A DNA stretch of 64,000 nt from assembly GCF_003002055.1 (NCBI RefSeq), contig NZ_PVZF01000007.1, positions 62,001-126,000 of the forward strand. The letters run 5' to 3'. The stretch comes from Kineococcus rhizosphaerae (GTDB taxonomy: Bacteria > Actinomycetota > Actinomycetes > Actinomycetales > Kineococcaceae). Below the pieces are notes generated by a model. It was not told where the DNA came from and made no database searches. It saw nothing but the letters and a program-made list of their open reading frames with translations. A program made the position numbers and the translations under genes. Shown here in pieces: positions 742 through 24,889 of this stretch (position 1 is the first letter of the stretch; each line of letters opens with the position of its first letter).

Positions 742-943
742 GGGTGGGGTTCTCCTTCAGCGCGGGGCGCGACGGCCTCCGCTGGTGGTTCGTCCCTCCA
801 CTGTAAGGACGCGACCGGCCGAGCGGGGGCTTTCGGGGAAGTCGCGCACAGGGTGGGTGCCCTGTCAGCCGCGCGTCAGGATCCCGTCAGGGCCACGTCA
901 AGGACTGTTCCGCAGCGGGTTCCGCGTCCCTAGCGTTCACGAC

Positions 944-3083: not shown

Positions 3084-3149
3084 CGGACGGGGGCGGATCT
3101 GCCGGCAACTGCTCGCCACGTCAGGTCGAGACCATCCAGCCTCACGAAT

Positions 3150-4916: not shown

Positions 4917-4933
4917 GGGCGCAGCCTCTCCGA

Positions 4934-4966
4934 TGGCTAAGATTCAGGAAGCTCTAATCTTAGCCA
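4934..4966. promoter_or_regulatory. Perfect 11-bp inverted repeat, candidate operator
   Basis: Arms TGGCTAAGATT (4934-4944) and AATCTTAGCCA (4956-4966) are exact reverse complements separated by 11 nt. The site is unusually AT-rich for this genome and lies just upstream of the Schlafen-domain regulator start at 4916, where its promoter must be. An autoregulatory operator is the simplest reading. A transcription terminator for the gene ending at 5044 is less likely because no T-tract follows in that direction. Confidence 0.6.
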
Positions 4967-5043
4967 GGCTGCCCCGGCTTCGGAAGAGACCGAGATCGCA
5001 GCAGAGCGACGGCACTCTCGTCCGTGAATGTTCCGGCACCGCC

Positions 5044-7982: not shown

Positions 7983-7993
7983 GCCAAACGCGC

Positions 7994-8294
7994 GGCCTGC
8001 GGGACGCGCAGGTTGATCGCGTGGACGGTCAGCTCCGTCTCCACCTCGAAACCCCGCGAGATCGCCGGGAACGACTTCACGAACCGCCGCGACATCACCC
8101 GGTACCCGCTCAGCATATTGGCGACAGGCTCGACGAACACCGTCGCCAACACCCGCGTCAACGCCTTGTTGCCTGCCTTGTGCCCAGGCCGGTACGCCGC
8201 CCGGGTGCTCGCCGGCCCGCCGCACGGCGCTGTCCCTCTGCGGCCGGGGCTCGTGACGGACCAACGCATCGTGAGCACGAAGGTCGTCAGGTGA
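7994..8294 (-). pseudogene. Decayed fragment of a GT2 (GtrB-like) glycosyltransferase gene
   Basis: The minus strand encodes stretches nearly identical to residues of the intact GT2 gene at 6339-7343: RPGHKAGNKALTRVLATVF, MLSGYRVMSRRFVKSFPAIS and GFEVETELTVHAINLRVPQA. Upstream, HDALVRHEPRP matches HGALVRHEPRP of the intact protein. Between them 44 codons (132 bp, including the DGD metal motif) are missing. The junction lies in a GGCCCGCCGC decamer (8214-8223) that occurs twice, 132 bp apart, in the intact gene (6984 and 7116). Both ends of the coding region are absent and further indels break the frame. It cannot encode an active transferase. Confidence 0.8.
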
Positions 8295-8620
8295 GCGGTT
8301 AAATCATAATCTGCGGGATCGCGACTGACAGGTCGACGTCGATATAGACTGCCGCGGCTTTATTCAGCAGAGAAAGACAATAGCGATGCGGACGGAATGA
8401 AGCCAGAGTCGAGCACTAGAATGAGGTTTTGTCAGTAACGGCCAACCACCACCGATAAAGCCCCAGTGACCGGCCGGCTACTAGGCGGCAGCGTGTTCTG
8501 ATCCTGCCGAGTTCAACTACCATGGCGCTGCCGGCGAGGGCTTACGGCCCTGCATGGCCACGACGTAAGCGGCGCTCGCTCCGGACGACGGGAGGAGTCC
8601 CGCTCACGAGTGGCTATGGG
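8295..8620. other. Gene-free, lower-GC junction region at the left edge of the catabolic island
   Basis: No credible coding frame is seen. Base composition drops (for example TTAAATCATAATCTG near 8300 and GATATAGACTG near 8340) compared with the neighbouring genes. The only recognisable element is a 20-bp match to the end of the IS5-family element at 24696-24713. The sequence looks like an insertion or deletion junction between the decayed GT2 copy and the SDR gene. Confidence 0.5.
8422..8441. repeat. Solitary IS5-type terminal repeat remnant
   Basis: TGAGGTTTTGTCAGTAACGG here matches the right end of the IS at 24694-24713 (reverse complement TGAGCCCTTGTCAGTAACGG) at 17 of 20 positions, including 13 consecutive bases. 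No transposase remnant adjoins it. Its outer end points left, whereas the IS right end at 24713 points right, so the two outer ends bracket the catabolic island in inverted orientation. Confidence 0.55.
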
Positions 8621-9427
8621 TTAGGCGGCCGACCAGCCGCCGTCGGAGGCGAGGATTGCTCCGTTGACGTTAAAGGCGTCGTCGCTGAGTAGCCAGGTGA
8701 TGGAGGCTGCGAGGGCGTTCGGCATGACCGGTGCGGGCATGATGCAGCGGGCAGCGCGCAGGCGGTCCGGGCCGTGCTGGGAATCCACCGTGACCTCGAT
8801 GCCGGTCATCGTGGGGCCGGGGGCGACGGCGTTGATGCGGATGCCGTTGGGTGCGTACATGAAGGCACCGCTCATGGTTAGGCCCGCGACTGCGTGCTTG
8901 GAGGCGGTGTAGGCCGCGCCCGCCGCCGAGCCGCGAAGTGCGGCCTCGGAGGCGGTGTTGACGATGGAACCAGCACCCCTCTCCAGCATCCCGGGCAGCA
9001 CCGCCCGCATGAGCTTCATGGTGCCCTCGACGTTGACCGCGAACACTCGCTGCCATACTGCGTCGCTCATGTCGTGCAGCGCTGACATGTCGTCCATGAT
9101 TCCAGCGATGTTGGCCAAGGCGTCCACCTGACCGGCGGCGGCTTGGAGGATGGAGGCGATGGAAGCATCGTCGGTGATGTCCGCTCCCACAGGCGTCAAC
9201 CGTCCCCCGCTCTCGACGTCGGCGACTTCGGCGAGGAGGCCGTCTAGCCGGTCGGCATCGATGTCGACGCCGACGACGTGACCGCCCTCGCGGATCACGC
9301 GTGCCGCGGTGGCCCGCCCGATGCCGGAACCGGCGCCGGTGACGATGACGGTCTTGCCGGTGAATCGACCTGGGGTGGGTCGTTCAGTCCACCGCGAGGC
9401 AAAGGTGGTGGGGTCCAGTTCGGTCAT
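8621..9427 (-). CDS. SDR family NAD(P)-dependent oxidoreductase
   Basis: 268 residues from ATG 9427 behind AAGGAG. Classical SDR features: cofactor motif TGAGSGIGRATA at about residues 30-41, the acidic VGVDIDADR after beta-2 favouring NAD(H), NIAGIMDD (NAG-like), catalytic Ser in VNTASEAALRGSA and catalytic YTASK. The substrate cannot be told from sequence. It is the last minus-strand gene before the island's left boundary and lies with a second SDR, an HSL esterase and a LacI regulator on the same strand. Oxidation of a sugar or of a hydroxyl on an aglycone is the plausible role, by inference from context. Confidence 0.85.
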   Translation of the reverse strand: MTELDPTTFASRWTERPTPGRFTGKTVIVTGAGSGIGRATAARVIREGGHVVGVDIDADRLDGLLAEVADVESGGRLTPVGADITDDASIASILQAAAGQVDALANIAGIMDDMSALHDMSDAVWQRVFAVNVEGTMKLMRAVLPGMLERGAGSIVNTASEAALRGSAAGAAYTASKHAVAGLTMSGAFMYAPNGIRINAVAPGPTMTGIEVTVDSQHGPDRLRAARCIMPAPVMPNALAASITWLLSDDAFNVNGAILASDGGWSAA

Positions 9428-10040
9428 GTTTTCTTCTCCTTGGGTTCTTTTGTGGGGCTGGAGGTGGGGCTGGAGGTGACCTCGCAGCCGAACCGGGTGA
9501 TCGGGTAATCCGGTGCCAGGTCTTGCTCCTGGCGTTGACCCAGCCGCTTCCGGTTCGCTCACTTCCTCTGACTGGCACGGGAACGTCGGGCGCGGAACAC
9601 GCACCAGCGTTCAGGTCTGCCGCCGTCCCAGCGGCGAGGTCGTCGGCGGTTGCGAATTGACGTGCTCGAACACCCACCCGCATCTGCTGCGTTGTGCTGC
9701 GGCTGCGCAGTGTTGGGAAGGCGAGGTGAGGATCCGGGATTGGCGGCCATGCTCGTGGTGAAGCTGCTCATGAGACTGGATGTTCAGGCTCTGCATCATG
9801 CAGTCAGTGTCTGCACCGGTTACGCGTGGGGGGCACCGCCCGAACCCGATCGCCGCGGCCCAGCCAGCAGGGCCGCGATCTACCTGAGCTAGCCGAACAG
9901 CCGTTCGTGCTGGAGGACATGTGCTTTGGCCACTACCTCAGCAACCGGGTCCGAGTGCATCACGTTGACAGAATCCACGCGTGAGACCTCGATCATCGGG
10001 CCTTGTTCGTGGCCCTACGGTCGAGACGTTCGGTCGATCC
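9428..10040. other. 613-bp intergenic stretch without a convincing gene
   Basis: Short open frames exist on both strands but none has a good ribosome-binding site, a recognisable domain or the codon bias of the neighbours. It separates the SDR gene from the esterase gene on the same strand, so the SDR probably has its own promoter here. A small palindrome CTGCATCATGCAG (9791-9803) is the only notable symmetry. Confidence 0.4.
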
Positions 10041-11066
10041 CTACTGGGTTGGTTCCTTCGCTGCAGCCTGCAGCAGTCGAGTTACCCAGGACTCTCGCGC
10101 GGCGGTAGCCGTGTGGGCCATAACCGATCCGGGGATAAAGGCTTCCCACCCGTGCGTGCCTCCGGGCCACACGTGCAGTTCCGCGGCCACGCCGCCCTCC
10201 CACAACTTCGAGGCGTAGGCCACCGTCTCGTCGCGGAACACCTCGGCGGAGCCGACGTCGAGGTAGGTGGGAGGCAACCCCGAGAGATCGAGTGCACGTG
10301 CGGGCGCGGCGTAGATCGAGACGTCGTCGGAAGCGCGCCGTTCTCCCAGTAGCGCAGTCCACCCGGTGAGGTTGCTGCTGCGGTCCCAGGCTCCCAGGCC
10401 GTCGAACTGGTGCGTGGAAACCGTGGCGTCGCGGTCGTCGAGCATCGGGCAGAGCAGGAACTGACCGACCAGGTTCGGCCCGCCTCGATCACGGGCAAGC
10501 AGCGCCACACCTGCAGCGAGACCACCACCTGCGCTGGCCCCGGCAAGCAGGATGCGGGCGGGATCGATCTGCAGGTCATCGGCGTTCTCACCGACCCAGC
10601 ACAGGGCCGCGTAGCAGTCTTCGACCGGAACGGGGTCGGGGTGCTCTGGAGCCAGGCGGTACTCCACGCTGACCGCGACGACATCGTGCGCCGCAACCCA
10701 CGGGGCGACCAGGGAGATGCCCGTCATCCGGTTGCCCATGACCATGCCGCCACCGTGGACGTTGAAGACACCCGGGCCGGCACCGACGTGGTCGCGGCGG
10801 CGAAGGACGGTCAACGTCAGCGGCTCACCACCGTATCCGGGCACGGTGTAGTCCCGCTGCTCCAGGTCCAAGGCGCTGATGTCCTCCGGAACGGCGTACT
10901 GACGCATCTGCGTGATGCTCTCCAGCGTCAACGGGGCGAAAACGGGCGCCTTTCCGATGGTTTCCAGCGCAGCAGCTACTCCTGGGTCGTAGGGCGGCCG
11001 CCTCGTCTGCGACCGGTCTGTGGTAGTCGGTCCGGGTGGTGGTGTCGAGGTCTTGGAGGTTTCCAT
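10041..11066 (-). CDS. Alpha/beta hydrolase, HSL-type (family IV) esterase
   Basis: 341 residues from ATG 11066. Hormone-sensitive-lipase family signatures are complete: oxyanion motif HGGG (residues 104-107), VSVEYRLAPEHPDPVPVEDC, and nucleophile elbow GASAGGG with Ser about 178. The charge-relay residues lie in DVGSAEVFRDE (Asp) and PGGTHGWE (His). There is no signal peptide, so it is cytoplasmic. Family members hydrolyse short-chain acyl or aryl esters. A second enzyme of the same type sits at the other end of the glycosidase run (22736-23773), suggesting removal of acyl groups from an imported acylated glycoside (inference). Confidence 0.85.
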   Translation of the reverse strand: METSKTSTPPPGPTTTDRSQTRRPPYDPGVAAALETIGKAPVFAPLTLESITQMRQYAVPEDISALDLEQRDYTVPGYGGEPLTLTVLRRRDHVGAGPGVFNVHGGGMVMGNRMTGISLVAPWVAAHDVVAVSVEYRLAPEHPDPVPVEDCYAALCWVGENADDLQIDPARILLAGASAGGGLAAGVALLARDRGGPNLVGQFLLCPMLDDRDATVSTHQFDGLGAWDRSSNLTGWTALLGERRASDDVSIYAAPARALDLSGLPPTYLDVGSAEVFRDETVAYASKLWEGGVAAELHVWPGGTHGWEAFIPGSVMAHTATAARESWVTRLLQAAAKEPTQ

Positions 11067-11215
11067 GGTTTCTCCCGAGTGGTGAGCGGCCAGGGGATCG
11101 AGCAGCCGTGACGTGGCACGGGGACGGTCGGGGTCACGGCGGGAGAGGAGAGAACGGATTACGCTCGACGCCGGGTGAACGCTTTCGCCGTGGGTGCAGT
11201 CGGCGGTGACGTGCT

Positions 11216-11983
11216 TCAGGTGCGCATGGTGGTTCCGCCGTCCACGCAGAAAGTCTGCCCTGTGGTCCACTCCGACAGGTCTGACATGAGGAAGGCGACG
11301 GTGGCGCCGATGTCGTCGGCGTGTCCGTGGCGGTGAGACGGGGTGGAGCTGAGGATGACTTCCTGGTACTCCTGCGGCAGGTTTCGCATCGTCTGTTCGG
11401 TGAGCACCAGTCCGGGGGCGACCCCGTTGGCTCGGACACGATCTTTGCCGTAGGCGCGGGCGACGTGTCGGGTCAGGGCGCCGACCCCGGCCTTGGTGAC
11501 CGAGTAGGCGACCTTGTCGGCCATGCCGGCGTAGACGGCGCCGGACATCGTGTTCACCACTGATCCTCCGCCCCCGGCAATCATGTGGGGCAGTGCGTGC
11601 TTGAGTGTACGGAGGTAGCCGGTGAGGTTGATGTCGATGCTGCGTTGCCAGGCCTGCAGGTCGATGTCGATCGCGTTGGTGTCCAAGGCCACCTCGGCTG
11701 GGGCGATGTTGGCCGCTACGTTGAAGAGTCCGTCGATCCGGCCGTAGGTGTCCATGGCCGTACCGATCAGGCGCGCGACGTCGTCGTCGTCGCTGATGTC
11801 CATCTCCAGAGCCACTCCGTCACCACCATTCTCCACAGCGGCCTGAAGAGTGCGCTGGGCAGAACCCGTGTCGATGTCGCCGATGACGAGACGGGCTCCT
11901 CCACCGGCCAGGAGACGAGCGGCGCTGGTGGCGATGCCACCTGCTCCGGCGAAGACGACGACCTTCTCGTCCAGTCCTTGCAT
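11216..11983 (-). CDS. SDR family oxidoreductase with variant cofactor loop
   Basis: 255 residues from ATG 11983. It has NVAANIAP, the serine in VVNTMSGAVYAG, the catalytic YSVTK and a C-terminal TGQTFCVDGGTTMRT typical of classical SDRs. The cofactor loop reads AGAGGIATSAA rather than the usual TGxxxGIG: it is one residue shorter and the last glycine is alanine. GDIDTGSAQ after beta-2 suggests NAD. It is followed, on the same strand, by the HSL esterase. Three copies of a short palindrome lie upstream (12004-12061). The substrate is unknown; the context suggests carbohydrate or aglycone oxidation. Confidence 0.8.
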   Translation of the reverse strand: MQGLDEKVVVFAGAGGIATSAARLLAGGGARLVIGDIDTGSAQRTLQAAVENGGDGVALEMDISDDDDVARLIGTAMDTYGRIDGLFNVAANIAPAEVALDTNAIDIDLQAWQRSIDINLTGYLRTLKHALPHMIAGGGGSVVNTMSGAVYAGMADKVAYSVTKAGVGALTRHVARAYGKDRVRANGVAPGLVLTEQTMRNLPQEYQEVILSSTPSHRHGHADDIGATVAFLMSDLSEWTTGQTFCVDGGTTMRT

Positions 11984-12003
11984 GCGAGTTCCTCCTCATG
12001 AGG

Positions 12004-12061
12004 GCCGACGTGGTCGGCGGTGAGTACGAGCCGACGTGGTCGGCTGTGGCGACGTGGTCGG
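12004..12061. promoter_or_regulatory. Three tandem palindromic sites, candidate operator
   Basis: GCCGACGTGGTCGGC (arms GCCGAC/GTCGGC around GTG) occurs at 12004-12018 and 12030-12044, and a shorter copy GGCGACGTGGTCGGT at 12048-12062. They lie upstream of the SDR gene starting at 11983 and downstream of the lacI-type gene ending at 12198. Spacings are 26 bp and about 18 bp. They differ from the GTTAnC-type sites at 13269-13358, so a second regulator, or a role as tandem hairpins, is possible. Confidence 0.5.
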
Positions 12062-12197
12062 TAGCGGGATTGGTTCAGGAGCGGTTTCGGTCCCTGTCAC
12101 CGAGAGGTGATGGATCTTCGTCGGGATGAGCGGGGGCCCTGTCGATCCACTGAGAGTGGAGCGGTGCGCCCCCGCCGGGCGCGGTGGCGCAGTACGG

Positions 12198-13142
12198 CTA
12201 GGCCGTGCCGCCGGCGACGATGCGCAGATCGATGGGGGGCGGAGTGGGGGCGTCGTCCTGGCCCAGGGCCTGGAGGGCGATGGCGAGCACGTTCTGCGCC
12301 ACGGCGGACAACTCGTACTCGATCGTCGTCAGTCGTGGAGCGGTCACACCTGAAAGGGGGATGTTGTCCATGCCGATGAGGCCCAGATCGGTCGGCACGT
12401 TCCAGCCGCGCTGGCCGGCGGCGGTGAGGAGCGTGATGGCGACGTCGTCGTTGTAGCACGCGACCCCGTACCCCGGCGCGAGCGCGTCCAGCGCCTGAGT
12501 CGCGTCGTCAAGGTTGATGCCCAGACCGAGGACCGTCGGCGCGGGCAGCCCGGCCGCGGCGCACACCTGCGCCACGGCCTCCTCACGGCTGGCGCCGTAG
12601 GGGTCCTGCCGGCTGTCGCGCAGGTGCGCGAAGGCCAGACGCCGGTACCCGCGGGCGACCAGGTGCTGGGCCTGAAGACGGCCGATGTCAGCGTTGAGGT
12701 CACCGTCGGTCGTGGTGTCGAAGCCCGGCACGCCGCGCTCGTCCAGGATCCGCCGTTCGGCCTCACTGAACGGCTGCAGGGACAGCACCGCGCGTGGCTG
12801 CATGCCCGCCAGCAGCCGGTCCAAGGTGGTGGAGGACGCAGCCGAGAGGCGCAGGACGAGGGTGAGCCCGCGTTGGGCCAGCACGTCGGTGACGGTGTCG
12901 AAGATGTCCTGCAGGTTGGTGCCGAAGGTCGTGTGCGGGATGAGGGCGATGACGAAGTCGCTGGAGCCTCGTCGCAGCATCCGCCCTGCGACCGAGGGCT
13001 CGTAGCCGAGCTCCTCGGCCGCCCGCAGTACGCGCTGGGCGGTTTCGGGGGCGAAGCGGTGCGCGTGGCCGTTGAGCACCTGGCTCACCGTGGCACGCGA
13101 CAGCCCGGCGTGCCGTGCCACGTCCGCACTGGTGGCCGCCAT
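12198..13142 (-). CDS. LacI family transcriptional regulator
   Basis: 314 residues from ATG 13142 (in-frame GTG slightly upstream is possible). The N-terminal HTH reads TSADVARHAGLSRATVSQVL, then the hinge helix FAPETAQRVLRAAEELGYEP, followed by a periplasmic-binding-protein-like sensor domain (LIPHTTFGTNLQDIF and onward; LIGMDNIPLSGVTAPRLTTI). Family knowledge: a sugar or sugar derivative relieves repression. It is transcribed away from the MFS-glycosidase operon. The intergenic region carries three similar 16-bp dyad sites (13269-13358), so it is very likely the local repressor of that operon and of itself. The effector is unknown. Confidence 0.9.
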   Translation of the reverse strand: MAATSADVARHAGLSRATVSQVLNGHAHRFAPETAQRVLRAAEELGYEPSVAGRMLRRGSSDFVIALIPHTTFGTNLQDIFDTVTDVLAQRGLTLVLRLSAASSTTLDRLLAGMQPRAVLSLQPFSEAERRILDERGVPGFDTTTDGDLNADIGRLQAQHLVARGYRRLAFAHLRDSRQDPYGASREEAVAQVCAAAGLPAPTVLGLGINLDDATQALDALAPGYGVACYNDDVAITLLTAAGQRGWNVPTDLGLIGMDNIPLSGVTAPRLTTIEYELSAVAQNVLAIALQALGQDDAPTPPPIDLRIVAGGTA

Positions 13143-13268
13143 CTCTTCCCCACCGTCCTTGGTCACGTTCAGCCGAACCTGGACTGACCCCGGATCTTGA
13201 TCGGACCTGGGCCGGTCCCGCTCGGCCGAGCTCTCATCGCTCGATGTCGGTCGACGTTGTCTATCAGT

Positions 13269-13358
13269 GTTGACACGAGATAACAACCGGTGCTCTACTC
13301 CGTTACCACGTGACAAGCGACCCGGTCCGATGTCGGCGGCTCGTTATCACGAGGTAAC
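13269..13358. promoter_or_regulatory. Three LacI-type operator sites in the divergent promoter region
   Basis: Dyad sites: GTTGACACGAGATAAC (13269-13284), GTTACCACGTGACAAG (13302-13317) and GTTATCACGAGGTAAC (13343-13358). The shared pattern is GTTAnCACGnGnTAAC with the central CG typical of LacI-family operators. Starts are 33 and 41 bp apart, roughly three and four helical turns. A TTGACA -35-like hexamer (13270-13275) overlaps site 1, and TCTACT (13294-13299) is a possible -10 for the rightward operon. Sites 2 and 3 then lie downstream of that start, a classic repression layout. Confidence 0.7.
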
Positions 13359-13428
13359 CCTCGGTGCACAGCCACTACCCCTACCGAGGGCCACGGCACC
13401 CTTGCTTGCGATCGACGAAGGAGTCGTC

Positions 13429-14796
13429 ATGCCTGAACACCACCCCACCGCCGCCTCCGCGGCGACGGCCGCTCCGGCCGCGCCGGGCGCGCCGGTCGCC
13501 CAGGTCCTCGCCGCCGACGTCGTCGAGGCCGGTGCGGACTCGGGACCGATGCGGTCCCCGGTCAAGGCGGGCTACATCATCTTGCTGCTGGTGACCATGT
13601 TCGGCGCCTACGTCGCGCTGGTGGCCCCCATCGGCCTGTCCCTGTCGCTACGAGTGCAGCAACTGGCCCCCTCCAACGTCGAGGTCCTGGGCTACATCAT
13701 CGGCGCCGGCGCCCTCGTCAACACCGTCACCGGCCCGCTGATCGGCTTGTGGAGCGACCGCACCCGATCGCGGTTCGGCCGCCGCCGTCTCTTCTCCCTG
13801 GGCGGGGCCCTGCTCGGCATCCTCGGTCTGGTCGTCATCGCCACAGCCGGGGCGATCCCCCTGGTCTTCGTCGGCTGGATCCTGGCCTCCTTCGGCTGGA
13901 CCACGGTCATGAACTCCCTGCTGTACTCCCAGGCCGACCGCCTGCCCGAGTCGCAGTACGGGAAGGTTGCCGGCTTCAGCGGATTCGTCCAGATGGTCGC
14001 CCCCGTCGCCGGGGTTGGCCTGGCCAGCGCCTTCTTGGGCAACAACTACCTGGTCTTTCTCGTGCCCGGCGCCCTTGGCCTGCTCACCGCGCTGGCCTGG
14101 TTCGCCTTCTCTCGCGAGCAGGACACCCGCACCGTCGACCTTCCCCAGCCGCTGACGCCGCTGGCCCTGGTCCGCAGCCTCGTCTTCGACCCCCGCCGCT
14201 ACCCCGACTTCGCGTGGAATTGGCTGGCGCGTCTGCTTTTCATGACCGGGGTGACGTTCTCCTCCACCTTCACCTCCTTGTTCTTCGCCGCCCGCCTGAC
14301 CCCCAGCGGTCAGGTCGCCGACCTCGGCTCGATCCTGGTCATCGCCTCGATGGTGAGCCTGGTCACCACCGGCATCGGCGCCCTGGGCTGCGGGTTCGTC
14401 TCCGACAAGCTCGGCCGCCGCAGGATCTTCGTGCTGGGCTCCGGCGTCCTCTACACCCTCGGCGCGATCATCCTGGCCTTCGGCGGCCACAGCTTCAACG
14501 TCTTGATGGTCGGTTCGGGGATCATGGGCCTGGCCCTGGGCATCTTCTCCGCCGTCGACCAGGCCCTCGTCCTGAACGTCCTGCCGGAGAAGGACACCGA
14601 CGCCGGCCGCTTCCTGGGCATCAACGGCTATACCACCTCGATCGCCCAGGCCGTCGCCCCCCTGCTGGCCGCGCCGCTGCTGCTCATCGGCGTCAGCGCC
14701 GGGCAGAAGAACTACGCCCTGCTGTTCATGGTCGCCGCGGGCTGCACCCTCATCGCCGGATTTCTGGTCCAGGCGAAGGTTCGCGCCGTGCGCTGA
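13429..14796 (+). CDS. MFS transporter, sugar/oligosaccharide type (SLC45/GPH-like)
   Basis: 455 residues from ATG 13429 behind GAAGGAG. After a soluble alanine-rich N-terminus of about 45 residues come 12 hydrophobic segments starting at AGYIILLLVTMFGAYVALV. The conserved MFS loop 2-3 motif is visible as GLWSDRTRSRFGRRR, and its repeat in the second half as GFVSDKLGRRRIFV. Family members are proton-coupled sugar or glycoside symporters. It is the first gene of the divergent operon, immediately before four cytoplasmic glycosidases, so it probably imports the glycoside they degrade. No ABC solute-binding protein is present in the cluster. Confidence 0.85.
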   Translation: MPEHHPTAASAATAAPAAPGAPVAQVLAADVVEAGADSGPMRSPVKAGYIILLLVTMFGAYVALVAPIGLSLSLRVQQLAPSNVEVLGYIIGAGALVNTVTGPLIGLWSDRTRSRFGRRRLFSLGGALLGILGLVVIATAGAIPLVFVGWILASFGWTTVMNSLLYSQADRLPESQYGKVAGFSGFVQMVAPVAGVGLASAFLGNNYLVFLVPGALGLLTALAWFAFSREQDTRTVDLPQPLTPLALVRSLVFDPRRYPDFAWNWLARLLFMTGVTFSSTFTSLFFAARLTPSGQVADLGSILVIASMVSLVTTGIGALGCGFVSDKLGRRRIFVLGSGVLYTLGAIILAFGGHSFNVLMVGSGIMGLALGIFSAVDQALVLNVLPEKDTDAGRFLGINGYTTSIAQAVAPLLAAPLLLIGVSAGQKNYALLFMVAAGCTLIAGFLVQAKVRAVR

Positions 14797-14846
14797 CCCC
14801 TCACCCACCGCTTGGACCTGCCCCTTCCCGCCCTGGAGATCCCTCG

Positions 14847-17318: not shown

Positions 17319-17320
17319 CA

Positions 17321-18844
17321 GTGAGCAACACGCTGAGCAACACGGTGAGCAACCACGAGCCGGTCATCGCCGGCTTCTTCCCCGACCCCTCCATCTGCCG
17401 GGCGGGTGACACGTACGTCCTGGTGAACTCCAGCTTCGAGTACCTGCCCGGACTGCCCGTGCACACCAGCACCGACCTGACCACGTGGACGTTCGCCGGC
17501 AACGCGCTCACCCGGGTCGAGCAGATCGCCGAGAGCGGCGGGCACCCCAGCTCGGGGATGTTCGCCCCCACGATCCGCCACCACGACGGCCGGTACTGGA
17601 TCATCGGCACCGACGTCAACGGCATCCCCGCCGGACGCGGGCACTTCCTCATCCACGCCACCGACCCCGCAGGGCCGTGGTCGGACCCGGTTCACCTGCC
17701 CGAAGCGATCGGCATCGACCCCGACATCGCCTGGGACGAGCACGGCACCGCGCACGTGACGTGGTGCTCGCTGGACCCCAGCCAGCCGGGCATCCGCTGC
17801 GCCCCCTTCGACACCGCCACCGGTGCCCTCCTGGCCCCCTCCCGGCAGCTGTGGTCGGGCACCGGCCTGGCCGCTCCGGAAGGACCGCACCTGTACCGCC
17901 GCGACGGGTGGTGGTACCTGCTGCTGGCCGAAGGGGGGACCGAGCGCGGACACACCGCCACGATCGCCCGGGCCCGCACCCTGGAAGGTTCCTTCGAGGC
18001 CAACCCCCGCAACCCCTTCCTCACCCACCGCAGCCTGACCCACCCGGTCCAGAACGTGGGGCACGCCGACCTCGTCGAACTACCCGACGGACGGTGGGCG
18101 GCCGTGCACCTCGGGGTGCGCAACCGCGGACCGTCGCCGGGGTTCCACGTCAACGGTCGCGAGACCTTCCTCGTGGGCATCGACTGGGTGCAGGGCTGGC
18201 CCGTGGTCGACGAGGACCGCTTCGACGTCCCGCCCGCCGACCACGCGTTCCACGACAGGTTCACCGCCGCCGACCTGCACCCGCGCTGGCTCGGCGCCGG
18301 ACGCTTCCCGGCCTCCTTCGCGCGCACCGGTCCCGACGGCCTCGTCCTCGACGCCGGCGGCGGCCGTTCGCTGCTGGCGGCCCGCGCCACCGACGAGACG
18401 TGGACCGCCTCGACCGAGGTCAGCCTCGAGGACGGCAGCTGCCGCTTCCTACTGCGCATCGACGACCGCCACTGGTACGGGCTGACCTACGACGGACACG
18501 CCGTCGAGGCCGTCTTGACCATCGGCCCGGTCCAACACACCGTCGGGCGCTGGGAACCGGAAACCGACACCCCCGGCACCGCCACGCTGGGCATCCGGGT
18601 CACCGCGCCCCGATCGCTGGCTCCTGGCCTGTTCAGCGAGCCGGACGGTGTCGAACTGCTGGCCGGCTCCAACGGCTCAGGCGGCTTCGCGCACAGCTTC
18701 GGGGTCTTCGACGGCCGTTACCTGTCCACCGAGGTCGCCGGAGGGTTCACCGGCCGAGTCTTCGGCGTCGAAGCGGTCAGCGGTCAGACCCGGGTGCACG
18801 CGATCAGCTACCAGCCGGGCGACCGCACCCCGCCGACCCCCTGA
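17321..18844 (+). CDS. Glycoside hydrolase family 43 (beta-xylosidase / alpha-L-arabinofuranosidase)
   Basis: 507 residues. AAGGAG (17310-17315) places the start at GTG 17321 rather than the GTG at 17315. The five-bladed beta-propeller carries the three GH43 acids: Asp about 22 in FFPDPSI, Asp about 133-135 in GIDPDIAW and Glu about 187 in APEGPHLY. A C-terminal concanavalin-like domain (from about residue 310, DRFTAADLHPRWLGAGRFPA) matches the GH43 beta-xylosidase accessory domain. No signal peptide. Expected activity is removal of terminal beta-xylose or alpha-L-arabinose from short substrates. It is tightly packed after the GH2 gene. Confidence 0.88.
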   Translation: MSNTLSNTVSNHEPVIAGFFPDPSICRAGDTYVLVNSSFEYLPGLPVHTSTDLTTWTFAGNALTRVEQIAESGGHPSSGMFAPTIRHHDGRYWIIGTDVNGIPAGRGHFLIHATDPAGPWSDPVHLPEAIGIDPDIAWDEHGTAHVTWCSLDPSQPGIRCAPFDTATGALLAPSRQLWSGTGLAAPEGPHLYRRDGWWYLLLAEGGTERGHTATIARARTLEGSFEANPRNPFLTHRSLTHPVQNVGHADLVELPDGRWAAVHLGVRNRGPSPGFHVNGRETFLVGIDWVQGWPVVDEDRFDVPPADHAFHDRFTAADLHPRWLGAGRFPASFARTGPDGLVLDAGGGRSLLAARATDETWTASTEVSLEDGSCRFLLRIDDRHWYGLTYDGHAVEAVLTIGPVQHTVGRWEPETDTPGTATLGIRVTAPRSLAPGLFSEPDGVELLAGSNGSGGFAHSFGVFDGRYLSTEVAGGFTGRVFGVEAVSGQTRVHAISYQPGDRTPPTP

Positions 18845-18880
18845 AGCAGACTCCACCACGCCGTGAGGAACTCCATGACG

Positions 18881-18889
18881 CCCCCCCCC
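18881..18889. repeat. C9 homopolymer at the 5' end of the GH3 gene
   Basis: Nine consecutive C residues follow ATGACG (ATG at 18875, preceded by GAGGAA). With eight Cs the frame from this ATG would read MTPPPYRDAALPVEQRIDDL and join the GH3 frame; with nine it does not. The tract is either a sequencing error, a slippage hotspot or a phase-variable switch. Confidence 0.75.
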
Positions 18890-18911
18890 GTACCGCGATG
18901 CCGCGCTGCCC

Positions 18912-21155
18912 GTGGAGCAGCGGATCGACGACCTGCTGAGCCGCATGAGCTTGGAGGAGAAGGCCGGGCAGCTGACCCAGTACTTCTACCTCGGCGTCCC
19001 CGAGCTGCCCGAGGACTTCGACATCGACTCCCTGCCCCCCGAGCACCGCGCCTTCGTCGAGCAGCCCAAGCAGATCGAGAGCGCCATCGCGGCGGGCCAG
19101 GTCGGATCGGCGCTGTTCGTCAAGGACCCGGTGCTGGTGAACCGTCTGCAGCGCCTGGCGGTGGGCACCACACGCCTGGGCATCCCGCTGCTGTTCGGCT
19201 TCGACGTCGTGCACGGCCTGCGCACCGTCTTCCCCGTGCCCCTGGCCCTGGCGGCCAGCTGGGACCCGGACCTGATCAAGGACGTGCAGGCGGTCGCGGC
19301 ACGCGAGGCCCGGGCGGCGGGCATCCACTGGACGTTCGCGCCGATGATCGACATCGCCCGCGACGCCCGCTGGGGACGCATCGTCGAAGGCGCCGGTGAA
19401 GACCCAGTGCTGGGGGCTGCGGTCGCCGCCGCTCAGGTGCGCGGTTTCCAAGGCGACCTGGGCGCCCAGAGCGTCCTGGCCGGCCCCAAGCACTTCGCCG
19501 GGTACGGAGCCGCGCGCGGCGGACGCGACTACGAGGACGCCGAGGTGTCCGACAACGAGCTGTGGAACGTGCACTTCCCTCCCTTCCGCGCCGCGATCGA
19601 CGCTGGGGCGGTGAACGTCATGAGCGCCTACATGGACCTCAACGGCGTACCGGCCTCGGCCAACCGCTGGCTGCTCACCGACGTCCTGCGCCAGGAGATG
19701 GGCTTCAGCGGGTTCGTCGTCTCCGACGCCAACGCCGTGCGCTCCCTGCAGATCCAGCACCTCGCAGCCGACCCGGCCGATGCCGCGGTCCGGGCCCTGA
19801 ACGCCGGGCTCGACATGGAGATGGCCATGTCCGAGGCGGCCTTTGCGCACCTGCCCCAGGCCGTTGCCGCAGGGCGGGTGGCCGAGCGCGACATCGACGT
19901 CGCGGTACGGCGGGTACTCGAAGCGAAGTTCCGGCTCGGGTTGTTCGAGACGCCCCTCGTCGACGAAACCGCCGCCGAAGCCACGCTGAGCTCCGGCGCC
20001 CACCGCGACCTGGCCCGTACCGCCGCCGCGCGATCGATCGTGCTGCTGAAGAACGCCGAGCACACGCTGCCGCTGACCCCGTCGTCCCTGCGCTCCCCGG
20101 GGTCGGTCGCGGTGATCGGGCAACTCGCCGACAGCCAGCGTGACCTGCTGGGTCCCTGGGTCTTCGACCACGACACCAGTGAGACCGTCACGATCCTGCA
20201 CGGGCTACGCCAACGGCTGGGTGAGGACGTCGTCGCCCACGCTCCCGGAGCAGGCATCACCGAGCGGTTGTTCCCCTCCGCCTTCGACCAAGCTGACCCC
20301 ACGATCCTCACCACCCCCGCGGACTGGGACGACGACGCCGAGATCGAACACGCCGTCCAGCTCGCCGCGGCCGCCGCCGTCGCCGTGGTGGTCGTCGGTC
20401 AGCGGCAGAACCAGGCCGGGGAAAAGGCCTCGACAGCGACACTAGCGCTGCCCGGGCGCCAACTCGAGCAGCTGCAACGCATCACAGCCACGGGAACCCC
20501 CGTCGTCGTCGTGATGGTCTCCGGGCGGCCGCTGGACCTGCGGTGGGCCGATGCGCACGTGGGAGCCATCGTGCAGGCCTGGTACCCCGGTACCCGTGGG
20601 GGCGAGGCCGTCGCGGACGTCCTGCTCGGGCAGGTCTCTCCCGCCGGGCGGCTGCCCCTGCAGTGGCCCCGCCACGTCGGGCAAGTCCCGATGACCTACG
20701 CGCACTACCGCACGTTCGAGCCGGAGAACGCCGGCTCACGCTACTTCGAGGAACCCAGCACCCCGCTGTACCCGTTCGGGCACGGCCTCAGCTACGCCTC
20801 CTTCGAGTACAGCGACCTGCGTCTGGACCGTGACGAGATCACTGTCGGGCAGAGCACCACGGTCTCGGTGACGGTCCGCAACACCTCCCAGCGCGAGGGG
20901 GACGAGGTGGCGCAGCTGTACATCCACCAGCGCCACGGCACCTCCTCACGTCCCGTGCGAGAGTTGAAGGGGTTTCAGCGCATCACCCTCGCCGCCGGCG
21001 AACAGCGCGAGCTGACCTTCACCCTGGGCCCGGAACAGCTGAGCTACTGGAGCGCCGTCACCCGTGGCGTCGTGCAGGACGCCACGACCGTCGACCTGTG
21101 GATCGGTGGCGACTCCACCGCCGAGCTGAGCACCACCTTGAGCGTCCGCGCGTGA
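18912..21155 (+). CDS. Glycoside hydrolase family 3 (beta-glucosidase / beta-xylosidase)
   Basis: 747 residues from GTG 18912. The natural start is probably ATG 18875, which is out of frame only because of the C9 tract. The (beta/alpha)8 domain runs to about residue 350: LFGFDVVHGLRTVFP, GPKHFAGYGAARGGRDY and the nucleophile Asp about 272 in GFVVSDANAV. The alpha/beta sandwich domain follows (SIVLLKN, VVVVGQRQNQAGEKA) and then a C-terminal Fn3-like domain (YPFGHGLSYASFEYSDL and on). The enzyme lacks a signal peptide. It removes terminal beta-linked glucose or xylose from oligosaccharides or aryl glycosides. It is third in the glycosidase run. Confidence 0.88.
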   Translation: MEQRIDDLLSRMSLEEKAGQLTQYFYLGVPELPEDFDIDSLPPEHRAFVEQPKQIESAIAAGQVGSALFVKDPVLVNRLQRLAVGTTRLGIPLLFGFDVVHGLRTVFPVPLALAASWDPDLIKDVQAVAAREARAAGIHWTFAPMIDIARDARWGRIVEGAGEDPVLGAAVAAAQVRGFQGDLGAQSVLAGPKHFAGYGAARGGRDYEDAEVSDNELWNVHFPPFRAAIDAGAVNVMSAYMDLNGVPASANRWLLTDVLRQEMGFSGFVVSDANAVRSLQIQHLAADPADAAVRALNAGLDMEMAMSEAAFAHLPQAVAAGRVAERDIDVAVRRVLEAKFRLGLFETPLVDETAAEATLSSGAHRDLARTAAARSIVLLKNAEHTLPLTPSSLRSPGSVAVIGQLADSQRDLLGPWVFDHDTSETVTILHGLRQRLGEDVVAHAPGAGITERLFPSAFDQADPTILTTPADWDDDAEIEHAVQLAAAAAVAVVVVGQRQNQAGEKASTATLALPGRQLEQLQRITATGTPVVVVMVSGRPLDLRWADAHVGAIVQAWYPGTRGGEAVADVLLGQVSPAGRLPLQWPRHVGQVPMTYAHYRTFEPENAGSRYFEEPSTPLYPFGHGLSYASFEYSDLRLDRDEITVGQSTTVSVTVRNTSQREGDEVAQLYIHQRHGTSSRPVRELKGFQRITLAAGEQRELTFTLGPEQLSYWSAVTRGVVQDATTVDLWIGGDSTAELSTTLSVRA

Positions 21156-21190
21156 GCAGCGCCGGACCTGACGACACCGAAGGACGGACG

Positions 21191-22459
21191 ATGACCACCC
21201 CCGACGAGACCACCCCCGGGACCCGCGCCGATGAGACGAGCGCCTCCGACCAGACCACCGGTGCGATCGCACCCTCCGGTTTCCTCTGGGGAGCCTCCAC
21301 TGCTCCGCACCAGACCGAAGGCAACAACGTCGGCAGCGACTGGTGGGTCTACGAGCAGCGCATGCCGTACTTCAACCCCAGCGGTGACGCCGTGGACAGC
21401 TACCACCGTTACGAAGAGGACATGCGCCTGTTGGCCCAGGCCGGGCTGAACGCCTACCGCTTCGGGGTCGAATGGGCCCGCATCGAGCCGCTGCCGGGTC
21501 AGTTCTCCCTCGCCGAGCTCGCCCACTACCGCCGGATGATCGACACCGCCTTGAGCCTGGGGCTGACCCCAGTGGTGACCCTGCACCACTTCTCCAGCCC
21601 CCGGTGGTTCGTCGAAGGAGGCGGCTGGCTCGCCGAGAACGCTGTCGAGCGGTTCTGCGCCTACGTCGAGCGCGTCAGCGACATCCTCGACGGCGTCGAG
21701 TGGATCTGCACGATCAACGAGCCGAACATGTTCGCCTTCATGATGCTCATGGCCGCAGCGATCAACTCCGACGCGGTTCCCGCGATGGACACCCCCACCG
21801 TGCAGCGCGAAGACGGGTTCGTGCTGCCCCGCCCCCTGCCGCAGGCCACGCAGCGGTTGATCGAAGCCCACCACGCCGCCCGCGAGGTCCTGCGCCGCCG
21901 CACACGGGCCAAGGTCGGCTGGACCCTGGCCAACCTCGTCATCCACGCGACGGGACCGGAGGCTGAGGCGATGGCGCAGGAGGAACGTGAGGTCCGCGAG
22001 GACGTCTTCCTGCGCGCCGCACGAGGCGACGACTTCATCGGCGTCCAGGCCTACTCGGTGCAGCCCGTCGACAGCGATGGCCTGGTGCCGCACCCGCCGC
22101 ACCCGGACAACACCCTGGTGGGCACCCCCTACCGCCCCGACGCCCTCGGGATCGCCGCGCGGCACGCCTGGGAGGTGACCGAGCACGTCCCCGTCCTGGT
22201 CACCGAGAACGGCATCGCCACCGCTGACGACGCCCGCCGCATCGCCTACACCCGCGAGGCGCTGAAGGGCTTGTTCGGCGCCGTGGACGACGGAGTCGAC
22301 GTGCGCGGTTACCTGCACTGGAGTGCACTGGACAACTTCGAGTGGGGCCACTGGGAGCCGACCTTCGGGCTCATCGCCGTCGACCGCCAAACCTTCGCCC
22401 GCACCCCCAAGCCGAGCCTGGCCTGGCTGGGCGACACCGCTCGTCGCGGGCGGTCCTGA
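21191..22459 (+). CDS. Glycoside hydrolase family 1 beta-glycosidase
   Basis: 422 residues from ATG 21191 behind GAAGGA. GH1 landmarks: FLWGASTAPHQTEG, YRFGVEWARIEP, acid/base Glu about 177 in TINEPN, nucleophile Glu about 339 in VTENG, and YLHWSALDNFEWGHWEPTFG. About 30 Thr/Asp/Ser-rich residues precede the barrel, without a signal peptide. Family activities include beta-glucosidase, beta-galactosidase and 6-phospho-beta-glucosidase. Because import here appears to be by MFS rather than PTS, a non-phosphorylated substrate is expected (inference). Last glycosidase in the operon. Confidence 0.9.
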   Translation: MTTPDETTPGTRADETSASDQTTGAIAPSGFLWGASTAPHQTEGNNVGSDWWVYEQRMPYFNPSGDAVDSYHRYEEDMRLLAQAGLNAYRFGVEWARIEPLPGQFSLAELAHYRRMIDTALSLGLTPVVTLHHFSSPRWFVEGGGWLAENAVERFCAYVERVSDILDGVEWICTINEPNMFAFMMLMAAAINSDAVPAMDTPTVQREDGFVLPRPLPQATQRLIEAHHAAREVLRRRTRAKVGWTLANLVIHATGPEAEAMAQEEREVREDVFLRAARGDDFIGVQAYSVQPVDSDGLVPHPPHPDNTLVGTPYRPDALGIAARHAWEVTEHVPVLVTENGIATADDARRIAYTREALKGLFGAVDDGVDVRGYLHWSALDNFEWGHWEPTFGLIAVDRQTFARTPKPSLAWLGDTARRGRS

Positions 22460-22735
22460 ACACCTCAGATCGCACCAACGCCGCCGCCCGCCGGTGTTGC
22501 AACCGGAACTGATGCCGGCTCCACCGCCGACGCCGACGCCGACGGCGACGGCGGCGGCGGCGGCCTGTGCTGGCCTGCTCGATGAACCACCATGGAAGCC
22601 ACCGTGAGAACCATCCGGACTGCGCCCTCGCACCCATCCCCACCAATAGTGCTCTCACAACGGCACCGCCAAAGCTACCCCTCGTGAGCACCACGCTCGC
22701 TCAACCGACGGCACCGATCCTCGTGAGGGGGACAT

Positions 22736-23773
22736 GTGGACACCATGGATGAGCTGGTCGACCCCGCGCTGCGCCAGGCTGCCCACTTCTGGCGACGGTG
22801 GACACCCCGGACGCCGGTCGCCTACCGGCGCCAGGTCCGCGCCATCAACGCGTTGAGGATTCTCAACACCCTCAGCGCCCGCCCGCCGCGCGGTGGCGTC
22901 GGTGTCACACGCGAGCGTGTACACGGTGACCTCCGCACCAGCCATCACTGGACCACCCGGCGCGATGGCACCCCGATGCGGCTGATGGTGATGCGGCCCG
23001 CGGTGGCACGTACCGAGGTGACCGGTGTGCTCTGGATCCACGGGGGCGGCTACGCCACCGGCAGTCCAGAGCAGTCCCGCGCCCTCGCCGAACGCCTCGT
23101 CGCAGCGACCGACAGCGTGGTGGTCCTGCCGGACTACCGTCTCTCCGTCCAGATGCCGTACCCCGCCGCGCTGCACGACTGCTACGACGCACTGATCTGG
23201 TTACGCGATCACGCCGGCGAGCTCGGTGTGGCCCGTGACCAACTGGTCGTGGGCGGTGAGAGCGCCGGCGGCGGATTGACCGCGGCGGTGAGCCTGCTGA
23301 CGCGCGACCTCGGCCAGGTCGCCATCGCCTTCCAGGTCCCGCTGTACCCGATGCTGGATGACCGGCCCACCGAATCCTCGCGCTCTAGCACCGCGCCGGT
23401 GTGGAACACCGTCACCAACGACACCGCCTGGGACCTTTACCTCGGCCCCCTGCGCGCCCACGCCAAGAACGGCACCGGCCCACCAGCCTATGCCGCCCCC
23501 GCACGAGCGCTCGACCTCTCCGGATTGCCACCCACCCTGACCTTCGTCGGCGACCTGGAACCCTTCTACGACGAAGTCGTGGACTACGTGAGGCGCCTGC
23601 AGGAAGCTGGAGTGCCGGTACTGCACCGCATCTTTCCCGGCGCCTTCCATGGTTTCGACCTGGTCGCTCCCGCCGCGCCCACCAGCCAGGAGGCCCGCGC
23701 CTTCACTCTCGACGGCTTTCGCCAGTTCAGCGCGACGTTCCGGTCAGAACAACCGTCGTCAGCAGCGGACTGA
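22736..23773 (+). CDS. Alpha/beta hydrolase, HSL-type (family IV) esterase
   Basis: 345 residues; GTG 22736 is favoured by GTGAGGGGG seven bases upstream, with ATG 22745 as alternative. Motifs: HGGG (about residues 102-105), LPDYRLSVQMPYPAALHDCYDA, nucleophile Ser about 176 in GGESAGGG, Asp in FVGDLEPFYDE and His in FPGAFHGFD. Same family as the esterase at 10041-11066. It is 276 bp after the GH1 gene, a gap containing only low-complexity (GCCGAC)n-like sequence, so it may or may not be cotranscribed with the glycosidases. It is probably a cytoplasmic deacylase acting on the same substrate class. Confidence 0.85.
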   Translation: MDTMDELVDPALRQAAHFWRRWTPRTPVAYRRQVRAINALRILNTLSARPPRGGVGVTRERVHGDLRTSHHWTTRRDGTPMRLMVMRPAVARTEVTGVLWIHGGGYATGSPEQSRALAERLVAATDSVVVLPDYRLSVQMPYPAALHDCYDALIWLRDHAGELGVARDQLVVGGESAGGGLTAAVSLLTRDLGQVAIAFQVPLYPMLDDRPTESSRSSTAPVWNTVTNDTAWDLYLGPLRAHAKNGTGPPAYAAPARALDLSGLPPTLTFVGDLEPFYDEVVDYVRRLQEAGVPVLHRIFPGAFHGFDLVAPAAPTSQEARAFTLDGFRQFSATFRSEQPSSAAD

Positions 23774-23788
23774 TGACCGAACCTGGCC

Positions 23789-24713
23789 GGTGGCGTTGTG
23801 AGCAACTACTCGGGACAGGGTCCGAAACCAACGCTGATGCAGGATCCGCTGTCCTCATTACAACCAATTTCGACCACCATGCCAGCCAGGACCTCCGTGC
23901 TCTCCTATCGTTCCAGCCTTGATGTCTCCCGTGAACTCGCTCAGGCCGTTGCCCGCCTACTATCGGCTCACCGCGTCAGGGTTGGTACTCGTCGGGGACG
24001 CCGGGCTCTAGGTTGCTTCGCTCAGGCCGTACTGCTGCTGCGGTTCATGCGTCAACGTGCCGCGGTCGCCGACCTCGCCCGCGATAACGCCGTGAGTCTC
24101 AAGACGGCCTACCGCTACCTGCACGAAGCTTTGGATGTGCTCGCCGCCGAAGCACCTGAACTGCCTGAAGTCGTCGCCAAGGCCGTGACTAGGAGAACCG
24201 AGCACCTACTGCTCGACGGCACCCTCATCGAAAGCGACCGAGTTCACGACCCTGGCGGTCAAAAGGACCGCTGGTACTCCGGCAAGCACCGCCACCACGG
24301 TGGTCTCGTGCAGGTCGTTACCGATCCCGACGGTCGGCCGCTGTGGGTGTCACCGGTCGAGCCCGGCAGTACCCACGACTTGACCGCGGCGCGTGTGCAT
24401 GCCCTACCTGCCCTCTACCGTGCTTCTCGCAACGGCGTTCCCACCCTGGCCGATAAGGCGTACACCGGCGCTGGGGTCGGCATCCGCGTTCCCATCCGGC
24501 GTCCCAGGGGCAGACAAGTTCTCGACGCTCCCACGCAGGGATGGAACTCATATGTGAACTCCGCTCGTGTCTTCGTCGAGCACGGTATCGCCCACTTGAA
24601 GAGTCGCTGGCGGGCGCTCCAGCGGGTCAGCCTCTGCCCGTGGCGCATCTCCGTGATCGTCGCCACGGCCCTCGTCCTTAGTCAAATAGAAAACCGTTAC
24701 TGACAAGGGCTCA
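23789..24713 (+). mobile_element. IS5-family insertion sequence
   Basis: About 0.92 kb containing one transposase gene. Imperfect terminal repeats are visible: left core TTGTGAGCAAC (23796-23806) and right core GTTACTGACAA (24696-24706), whose reverse complement TTGTCAGTAAC matches at 9 of 11 positions. Exact outer boundaries and target duplication could not be fixed. It sits directly after the esterase gene, at the right end of the catabolic island, and is followed by an AT-rich stretch. A matching solitary end occurs at 8422-8441. Confidence 0.7.
23879..24703 (+). CDS. IS5-family transposase (DDE_Tnp_4 type)
   Basis: 274 residues from ATG 23879 (ATG 23837 is an in-frame alternative). The N-terminal helical HTH region reads VLSYRSSLDVSRELAQAV, then VADLARDNAVSLKTAYRYLHEALDVL. 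The DDE nuclease core follows: first Asp in LLLDGTLIESDRV, RWYSGKHRHHGGLVQVV, second Asp in STHDLTAAR/LADKAYTGAG and final Glu in VFVEHGIAHLKSRWR. The protein appears full length and undisrupted, so the element may still be active. GC is somewhat lower than that of neighbouring genes, in keeping with mobility. Confidence 0.85.
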   Translation: MPARTSVLSYRSSLDVSRELAQAVARLLSAHRVRVGTRRGRRALGCFAQAVLLLRFMRQRAAVADLARDNAVSLKTAYRYLHEALDVLAAEAPELPEVVAKAVTRRTEHLLLDGTLIESDRVHDPGGQKDRWYSGKHRHHGGLVQVVTDPDGRPLWVSPVEPGSTHDLTAARVHALPALYRASRNGVPTLADKAYTGAGVGIRVPIRRPRGRQVLDAPTQGWNSYVNSARVFVEHGIAHLKSRWRALQRVSLCPWRISVIVATALVLSQIENRY

Positions 24714-24857
24714 ATATAAATAGGGTTGATAAGTTAAGTTAAAAACCATTGCGAGCCAAAAAATTCTACTTTGCGCCAGTCAGCTTCAAGCCTGAACCAG
24801 CATAACTATACTTGCACTCAGTGGTTCTTATGTTCCTACGCCGGCATAGAAAACGGA
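24714..24857. other. AT-rich spacer right of the IS
   Basis: No gene seen. The stretch is strikingly AT-rich for this genome (ATAAATAGGGTTGATAAGTT near 24716, CCAAAAAATTC near 24756), resembling the low-GC junction at 8295-8620. Foreign DNA or an insertion scar is the likely explanation. Confidence 0.4.
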
Positions 24858-24889
24858 CGAGGGCCAGCACCGGTTGGTGCTGGCCCTCG
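24858..24889 (-). terminator. Rho-independent terminator of the CWB2 surface-protein gene
   Basis: A perfect 14-bp stem (CGAGGGCCAGCACC / GGTGCTGGCCCTCG) with loop GGTT. Read on the minus strand it lies 57 nt after the stop at 24946 and is followed by TCCGTTTTCTAT. It terminates the leftward surface-protein transcript. Confidence 0.85.

Follow-up and report, generated by a model that had tools for sequence, protein, structure and literature searches.

A glycoside-catabolism block in Kineococcus rhizosphaerae that may have moved as one unit between an IS5-type element and a MITE-like palindrome

Introduction

Miniature inverted repeats can supply the ends that mobilise neighbouring DNA, as PMC4133298 describes for TIMEs (Tn3-derived inverted-repeat miniature elements) and for mosaic non-autonomous transposons. 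Transporter insertion sequences (tIS), in the account that PMC9330008 gives of their structure, hold passenger genes between terminal repeats of one family. On the catabolic side, PMC9597252 and PMC10653915, in the portions that concern enzyme function, describe GH2/GH3/GH78 and GH3/GH39 glycoside hydrolase (GH) sets that deglycosylate glycoalkaloids. Here we examine a 64,000-nucleotide stretch of the Kineococcus rhizosphaerae draft genome (5.6 Mb, 63 contigs), positions C7:62001-126000, hereafter the window. Within it, the block 8422-24713 holds predicted glycoside-catabolism genes between a palindrome resembling a miniature inverted-repeat transposable element (MITE) on the left and an IS5-type insertion sequence (IS) on the right. 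No described equivalent, whether an IS5/MITE catabolic composite transposon in actinobacteria or an IS5-family transporter IS, was found in the open-licence literature.

Our tentative reading is that 8422-24713 is one IS5-type transposition unit whose left end is an arm of the MITE-like palindrome and whose cargo is a LacI-controlled glycoside operon. We give this reading just under an even chance, and it is somewhat more likely than any single rival.

Results

Two related ends bracket the block

An original prediction, made from the letters of the window, had described a solitary 20-bp match to an IS end at 8422, opposite an intact IS5 element. The match is real. The 20-bp ends at 8422 and 24713 are identical at 17 of 20 positions, and the 13-mer that they share exactly, TTGTCAGTAACGG, occurs just twice in the 5.6-Mb draft genome, at 8429-8441 on the forward strand and at 24694-24706 on the reverse strand, compared with none for the control. 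Allowing up to two mismatches, the window again yields two matches, a number reached by 5 of 100 shuffles; both real ones are exact. End-like 20-mers with at most three mismatches number four in the draft genome, two of which bracket the block, and these genome-wide counts dispose of the possibility that the match at 8422 is a common unrelated motif.

The term solitary did not hold up: the match forms the left arm (8422-8441) of a 44-bp degenerate palindrome at 8422-8465, which continues with a spacer (8442-8445) and a right arm (8446-8465). Over its full length it aligns to a 44-bp palindrome of another Kineococcus genome, G001, with eight mismatches, all transitions, of which one falls in the left 20 bases and seven in the other 24. 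Across the 64 kb, both strands included, only two 24-mers come within seven all-transition mismatches of this second part, at 8422 and 8442. The 44-bp palindromes of relatives consist of two IS ends and a 4-bp spacer. Four copies with three or fewer mismatches were found in three of the ten other same-genus genomes (G001:C1:5423938-5423981, G001:C1:4981308-4981351, G006:C4:364648-364691, and G010:C40:24992-25035), more occur in G011, and the family includes copies at L183:1568 and L183:3188. The window palindrome requires four mismatches in that search pattern and is the sole copy seen in its own genome. In being short and non-coding, with IS-family ends and several dispersed copies in relatives, the element has the features of a MITE. 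The palindrome family spans Kineococcus and a related genus, and the copy from G001 folds into an almost perfect hairpin.

No IS body was found at 8100-9100, where nothing but the end repeat rises above noise in a comparison with the IS (14 bases, E 0.003). Because the palindrome matches the 44-bp copies of relatives and this region lacks an IS body, we class the 8422 element, by its sequence, as a MITE-like miniature built from ends of the same IS family and no lone IS tip. This bears directly on a classical composite transposon, in which a full left IS at 8422 was later deleted except for its tip. Such a transposon would account for two ends that are inverted and face outwards, yet inside the 8422 tip the sequence continues as the second arm of the palindrome, with nothing but the end repeat recognisable as IS; we judge that explanation highly improbable. 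A left IS copy at 8422 was rejected on these grounds, and the two ISs that define a composite transposon are not both there.

The IS5-type element on the right lies at approximately 23774-24713 on the forward strand, with its right repeat at 24694-24713 and its left boundary deduced from the length of the G001 copies. Its transposase open reading frame (ORF; 23798-24703, forward strand) matches DDE_Tnp_4 above the Pfam cut-off and remains below those of the NCBIfam IS5 models (110 versus 140 bits). Relatives of the IS reach 82% nucleotide identity, and matches occur in 16 of 59 genomes, its own included. A search of its own genome, in which 8 of 187 candidates were scored, gave among the matches listed the window IS and two places on contig C29. 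In viral contigs, no occurrence of the transposase was confirmed. Two IS copies in G001 that share an identical 951-bp stretch define the element as 944 bp with ends TGAGCCTTTGTCAGTARCGG; both have terminal inverted repeats at both ends and AGT on either side. Outside the window, the loci compared contain 29 distinct end copies, of which 26 adjoin flanks of the form ANT; with the two window copies, the count is 28 of 31. The G001 copies and these ends thus display a 3-bp ANT target duplication for the family, which we take to be typical of the ISL2 subgroup.

The claim that the element is intact stood for its right side, where the repeat matches the consensus at 19 of 20 positions and the transposase ORF is whole, but failed on the left. 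There the repeat is unrecognisable: the best ungapped match at the expected place (~23774, directly after the stop of the esterase gene estB) is 9 of 20, and the alignment is poor and requires a 3-bp gap. Elsewhere, at L179:2262-4380 (G008), another two of these IS ends form an inverted pair spaced 2.1 kb. Between them, beside the transposase, are what by eye resemble an Lrp-type regulator and a small hydrolase; the outer triplets differ, AGT against ACT.

Flanking triplets and base composition suggest a joint move

The triplets outside the two ends are both AAT, at 8420-8422 and 24713-24715, which we propose to be a 3-bp target duplication; on its inner side, the palindrome is flanked by AGT. 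Had the palindrome inserted alone, its own two sides should match, whereas a joint move predicts a matching outer pair, as is seen. The AGT would be expected if it was inherited from the donor site when the unit moved together. Among end copies outside the window, triplets with a middle A on this strand are uncommon (AAT 2/29, ATT 3/29).

Low GC had been claimed for both borders, and it was borne out at 0.508 and 0.415 over 130 bp. The outer left flank is AT-rich across 8253-8421, where 8292-8421 belongs to the 0.27% of 130-bp windows in the 64 kb that are poorest in GC, and the outer right flank across 24714-24889, where 24717-24846 belongs to the poorest 0.09%. The right flank continues into a terminator-like hairpin beside a CWB2 gene. 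Every 130-bp window with GC of 0.53 or less in the 64 kb falls in 8253-8473 or 24613-24889. The inner flanks are ordinary (0.685 and 0.662), the block as a whole has a GC of 0.694 and the IS 0.633, and the surrounding DNA has 0.735 (1-7300) and 0.745 (29001-64000). It looks as though a single AT-rich spacer had been cut in two.

These same observations tell against the explanation that the island came by another route, such as homologous recombination or a conjugative element since lost, and that its borders, in a locus prone to collecting insertions, received the palindrome and the IS in separate events. Under independent insertion, the palindrome's outer and inner triplets would not be expected to differ while the two outer triplets agree, nor would low-GC runs be confined to these two borders with inner flanks that are not AT-rich, and the genome yielded just four such ends. 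In its favour, the 8422 element forms a whole palindrome, extra DNA lies to its left, the locus varies within the genus, and the transposase is present in none of the 80 related GH2 loci considered below. We regard independent insertion as a serious contender, though well short of an even chance.

The locus in other Kineococcus genomes

In G001 and G006, the matches to 5095-7320/7355 and to 26437-27932/27935 lie only 1.8 and 2.1 kb apart, and the intervening DNA is mostly the diverged 3' part of the CWB2 gene; approximately 17 kb of the window is therefore absent from these genomes. Other genes lie between the two flanking genes in G005 and G003, and in G005, G003, and G002 the flanking genes are further apart or differently oriented. 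Among the matches listed, the block as such was in none of the ten other same-genus genomes, so that conservation at this locus in all close relatives, named beforehand as an outcome that would undo the island, was not observed. An island bracketed by outward-facing ends is thus supported by the AAT flanks, the AT-rich borders, and its absence from G001 and G006, with the amendment that the left end, as a palindrome, faces both ways.

To the left of 8422, positions 6767-6991 are directly duplicated at 7993-8217 (225 bp, 88% identity), and a Uma2-family gene separates the two. The second is perhaps what is left of a paralogue of the adjacent gene.

Several points weigh against a single transposition. 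The original prediction called for an empty site and a target duplication; the outer triplets agree, but a comparison of each flank with the same-genus genomes gave no exact empty site, and a search with the joined flanks in 148 other genomes of the order returned only three short matches of 24-31 bases. Among the matches listed from 18 other genomes there was no second copy of the whole unit. The palindrome by itself accounts for the 20-bp match without any joint transposition, and in a family that targets ANT a 3-bp match amounts to one informative base. The difference between AAT and AGT is moreover a single transition, in a place where 7 of the 24 bases at 8442-8465 are transitions. Because the left IS repeat is unrecognisable, the inner triplet of the IS is unreadable, so that this flank neither supports nor opposes a single insertion. 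A 63-contig draft may miss IS copies in the count of four, and the low-GC runs extend into the repeat and the IS end (8473 and 24613). Finally, G001 and G006 lack ~1.1 kb to the left of 8422 along with the block, so the locus was shaped by more than one event; the Uma2 gene and the duplication are other changes within the stretch that both genomes lack.

The block encodes a predicted LacI-controlled glycoside operon

Profile searches of the window ORFs against Pfam and NCBIfam, together with motifs, confirmed the gene content first proposed: two short-chain dehydrogenases/reductases (SDRs), two HSL-type esterases, a LacI-family regulator, a major facilitator superfamily (MFS) transporter, GH2, GH43, GH3, and GH1 enzymes, and a DDE transposase. 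The 11 chosen reading frames contain no stops. As the NCBIfam models for GH2, GH3, GH1, and the transposase all scored under their own cut-offs, names are kept at the family level; the starts of SDR1, LacI, MFS, GH2, and GH1 were picked by eye.

Four genes lie on the reverse strand. SDR1 (8621-9427; PF00106/PF13561) starts at MTELDPTTF within ORF 8621-9604. EstA (ORF 10041-11270; PF07859) has the motifs GASAG and HGGG, and its true start is probably near 11006, judged by eye; its closest solved chains are two lipases and a heroin esterase. SDR2 (11216-11983) was called by the Pfam scan, and the LacI-family regulator (12198-13142) likewise by Pfam. On the forward strand follow the MFS transporter (13429-14796 within ORF 13267-14796; PF07690; AAGGAG upstream), a GH2 with DUF4982 and GH2_C5 domains (14847-17318; best NCBIfam models GalB/GalA, far under cut-offs), a GH43 (17315-18844) whose closest solved relative is the arabinofuranosidase BoGH43A, followed by a beta-xylosidase, a GH3 (18912-21155; best NCBIfam model BglX, 645 bits versus a cut-off of 666), a GH1 of the short type (21191-22459; TINEP and TENG), and EstB (22736-23773; PF07859, HGGG, GESAG). 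Catalytic motifs were found in GH1, GH2, GH3, and both esterases. Inspection of the N-termini by eye only revealed no obvious signal peptides from MFS through GH1.

The gap between lacI and the MFS gene contains three 16-bp palindromes resembling LacI operators, at 13269, 13302, and 13343 (13269-13358), and no others occur in the window with up to three mismatches. Five mononucleotide shuffles of the window gave no sites with up to two mismatches and four with three. The pattern was built from these very sites, so that their own count is no test and outside loci serve as the check. The motif recurs with one to two mismatches before homologous lacI genes, once in Microbacterium sp. cf046 (L092) and twice in M. 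aoyamense (L093), and the window LacI is 54-58% identical to those of L092, L093, L096, and L169. On account of this recurrence, and with lacI adjoining the transporter and GH genes as LacI-regulated glycoside operons do, the sequence supports a predicted LacI-controlled operon MFS-GH2-GH43-GH3-GH1 for part of the group. Its reach is limited by L090, L096, L169, L180, and L188, in which the motif was not found with up to three mismatches; in L090, the sequence before lacI was covered. L091 and L094 have single weak matches (three mismatches) at other places.

Upstream of SDR2, CCGACGTGGTCGG occurs on the forward strand exactly at 12005 and 12031 and with one mismatch at 12049 (12005-12061). 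With up to two mismatches it has 39 matches in the 64 kb, and the exact pair alone stands out; a second regulator may bind these copies.

Other actinobacteria carry partly similar clusters

A search for the same gene set, as had been suggested, recovered partly similar clusters. We considered the best 80 of 570 loci with a GH2 relative, scoring matches at E 1e-10 and 40% coverage; 49 of the 80 are at least 22 kb long, so the counts for the other genes are lower bounds. Matches were found for GH3 in 34 loci, SDR1 in 15, LacI in 14, MFS in 9, GH1 and SDR2 in 8 each, GH43 in 7, EstA in 4, and EstB in 2, with the two SDRs cross-matching. At 50% identity or more, the counts were LacI 5, GH1 5, SDR1 4, MFS 2, GH3 2, GH43 1, and SDR2 1. 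Neither esterase reached this identity in any of the 80 loci, which counts against the reading that we propose.

The fullest loci of the 80 are those of a Demequinaceae metagenome-assembled genome (L090; GH3 76%, GH43 66%, GH2 64%, MFS 55%, and LacI 52% identity), Rathayibacter (L169; GH1 77%, SDR1 61%, LacI 53%), and Streptomyces sp. yr375 (L167; SDR2 72%, GH1 66%); none of the 80 holds the whole set. At another site, K. radiotolerans (G007) carries the same families in a diverged cluster (GH1 60%, GH43 52%, GH2 45%), ordered MFS, GH43, GH3, GH3, LacI, MFS, GH2, GH1, SDR (L180; G007:C2:4468500-4488000). Some cluster hosts are presumably plant-associated, a source being stated in the Clavibacter record alone.

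That record, Clavibacter michiganensis pVQ28-1 (NZ_CP076350), gives tomato as its source and has the order LacI-GH2-GH3-GH1-...-GH43-MFS-GH78. Its cluster resembles the window block in GH1 (58% identity), GH2 (47%), LacI (38%), GH3 (33-36%), and MFS (31%), and differs from it in carrying GH78, P450, and other genes; at E 1e-8, neither its GH43 nor any SDR, esterase, or transposase was matched. At 131,593 bp, pVQ28-1 (NZ_CP076350.1; L188 and L190) is close in length to a 131,602-bp chp/tomA contig of another Chilean strain, as reported in the relevant part of PMC7692107, and the record may represent the chp/tomA island as a circle or an effect of assembly.

The predicted substrate is a small acylated glycoside

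Our reading is that the substrate is a small, acylated, branched beta-glycoside of uncertain class. A plant secondary glycoside, perhaps saponin-like, is plausible by analogy with the glycoalkaloid-degrading enzyme sets, and saponin specificity cannot be assigned to any enzyme of the block. A search of the open-licence literature on saponin use with Microbacterium and others found nothing. Among solved structures, those nearest to the GH1 across almost its whole domain are SGR_2426 of Streptomyces griseus (PDB 8kap and 9u98) and BGL167 (4r27). The section of PMC12369401 concerned with specificity links Trp291 and Gln229 of SGR_2426 to sophorose preference. These residues align to Thr and Leu in the window GH1, so no linkage can be deduced for it, and sophorose (beta-1,2) specificity, which we considered, is unsupported.

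The block might instead serve the use of hemicellulose-derived oligosaccharides, acetylated and of the arabino- or galacto-xyloglucan type, with no secondary-metabolite glycoside involved. BoGH43A, to which the GH43 is closest, reportedly comes from a Bacteroides locus for xyloglucan in which GH2 and GH3 enzymes are likewise encoded, and the HSL-type esterases could be acetyl-esterases. No GH31 or endo-acting enzyme was seen, however, among the scanned ORFs of the block, in a search that did not extend to the rest of the genome, and the SDRs fit poorly with such a role; homologues of the SDRs (55-72% identity) are also present in the related loci L093, L167, and L169. We hold this function to be possible, leaning distinctly towards the unlikely.

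Discussion

If the block moved as one IS5-type unit, the 16.3-kb segment 8422-24713 would have entered an AT-rich spacer as a single piece. The transposase encoded at its right edge, of the type that targets ANT, would have paired its own right repeat (24694-24713) with 8422-8441, the outer arm of the 44-bp MITE-like palindrome 16.3 kb away, in place of the IS's own left repeat, now unrecognisable. Everything between the paired ends would have moved, with duplication of AAT. Once established, LacI would repress the operon and the MFS permease would import a small beta-linked glycoside, from which GH2, GH43, GH3, and GH1 would strip sugars inside the cell, while the esterases would deacylate and the SDRs oxidise the substrate or its aglycone. 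We infer the single transposition, the uptake of the intact glycoside, the order of the reactions, and the substrate class.

The more general proposal, that an IS5-type element with one end lost can move a 15-kb catabolic operon by means of its remaining end and a dispersed 44-bp MITE, is put forward with some reserve, as somewhat short of an even chance. If true, it would be a minimal route of mobility for whole catabolic operons in high-GC actinobacteria that needs neither a second IS nor a conjugative element, and in genera with such palindromes one IS copy could make a transposon of any nearby operon. The diagnostic signs to seek elsewhere would be AT-rich outer borders and outer triplets that match where inner triplets do not. 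The cargo further suggests that there is a type of glycoside cluster, LacI-MFS-GH2-GH1-GH3, whose operator-like motif is shared with Microbacterium.

As to known systems, the clusters of Arthrobacter S41 and Glutamicibacter S2, as the cited parts of PMC9597252 and PMC10653915 present them, share with the window clustered GH2 and GH3 exo-glycosidases and a branched plant glycoside. Compared by description, the window lacks GH78 and has GH43, GH1, SDRs, esterases, LacI, and MFS. The proposed mode of movement resembles TIMEs and mosaic non-autonomous transposons, in the features that PMC4133298 sets out for them, in that miniature inverted repeats provide mobilising ends and the targets are AT-rich. 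Unlike the TIMEs of that account, which are 262 bp and Tn3-derived, the ends here are of the IS5 type; a miniature of 44 bp contributes just one of the two ends, and the unit itself contains the transposase gene. With tIS, as characterised in the corresponding part of PMC9330008, the block has in common one transposase, terminal repeats of one family, and passenger genes between them; it differs in that its left end is a palindromic miniature and its passenger genes occupy ~15 kb.

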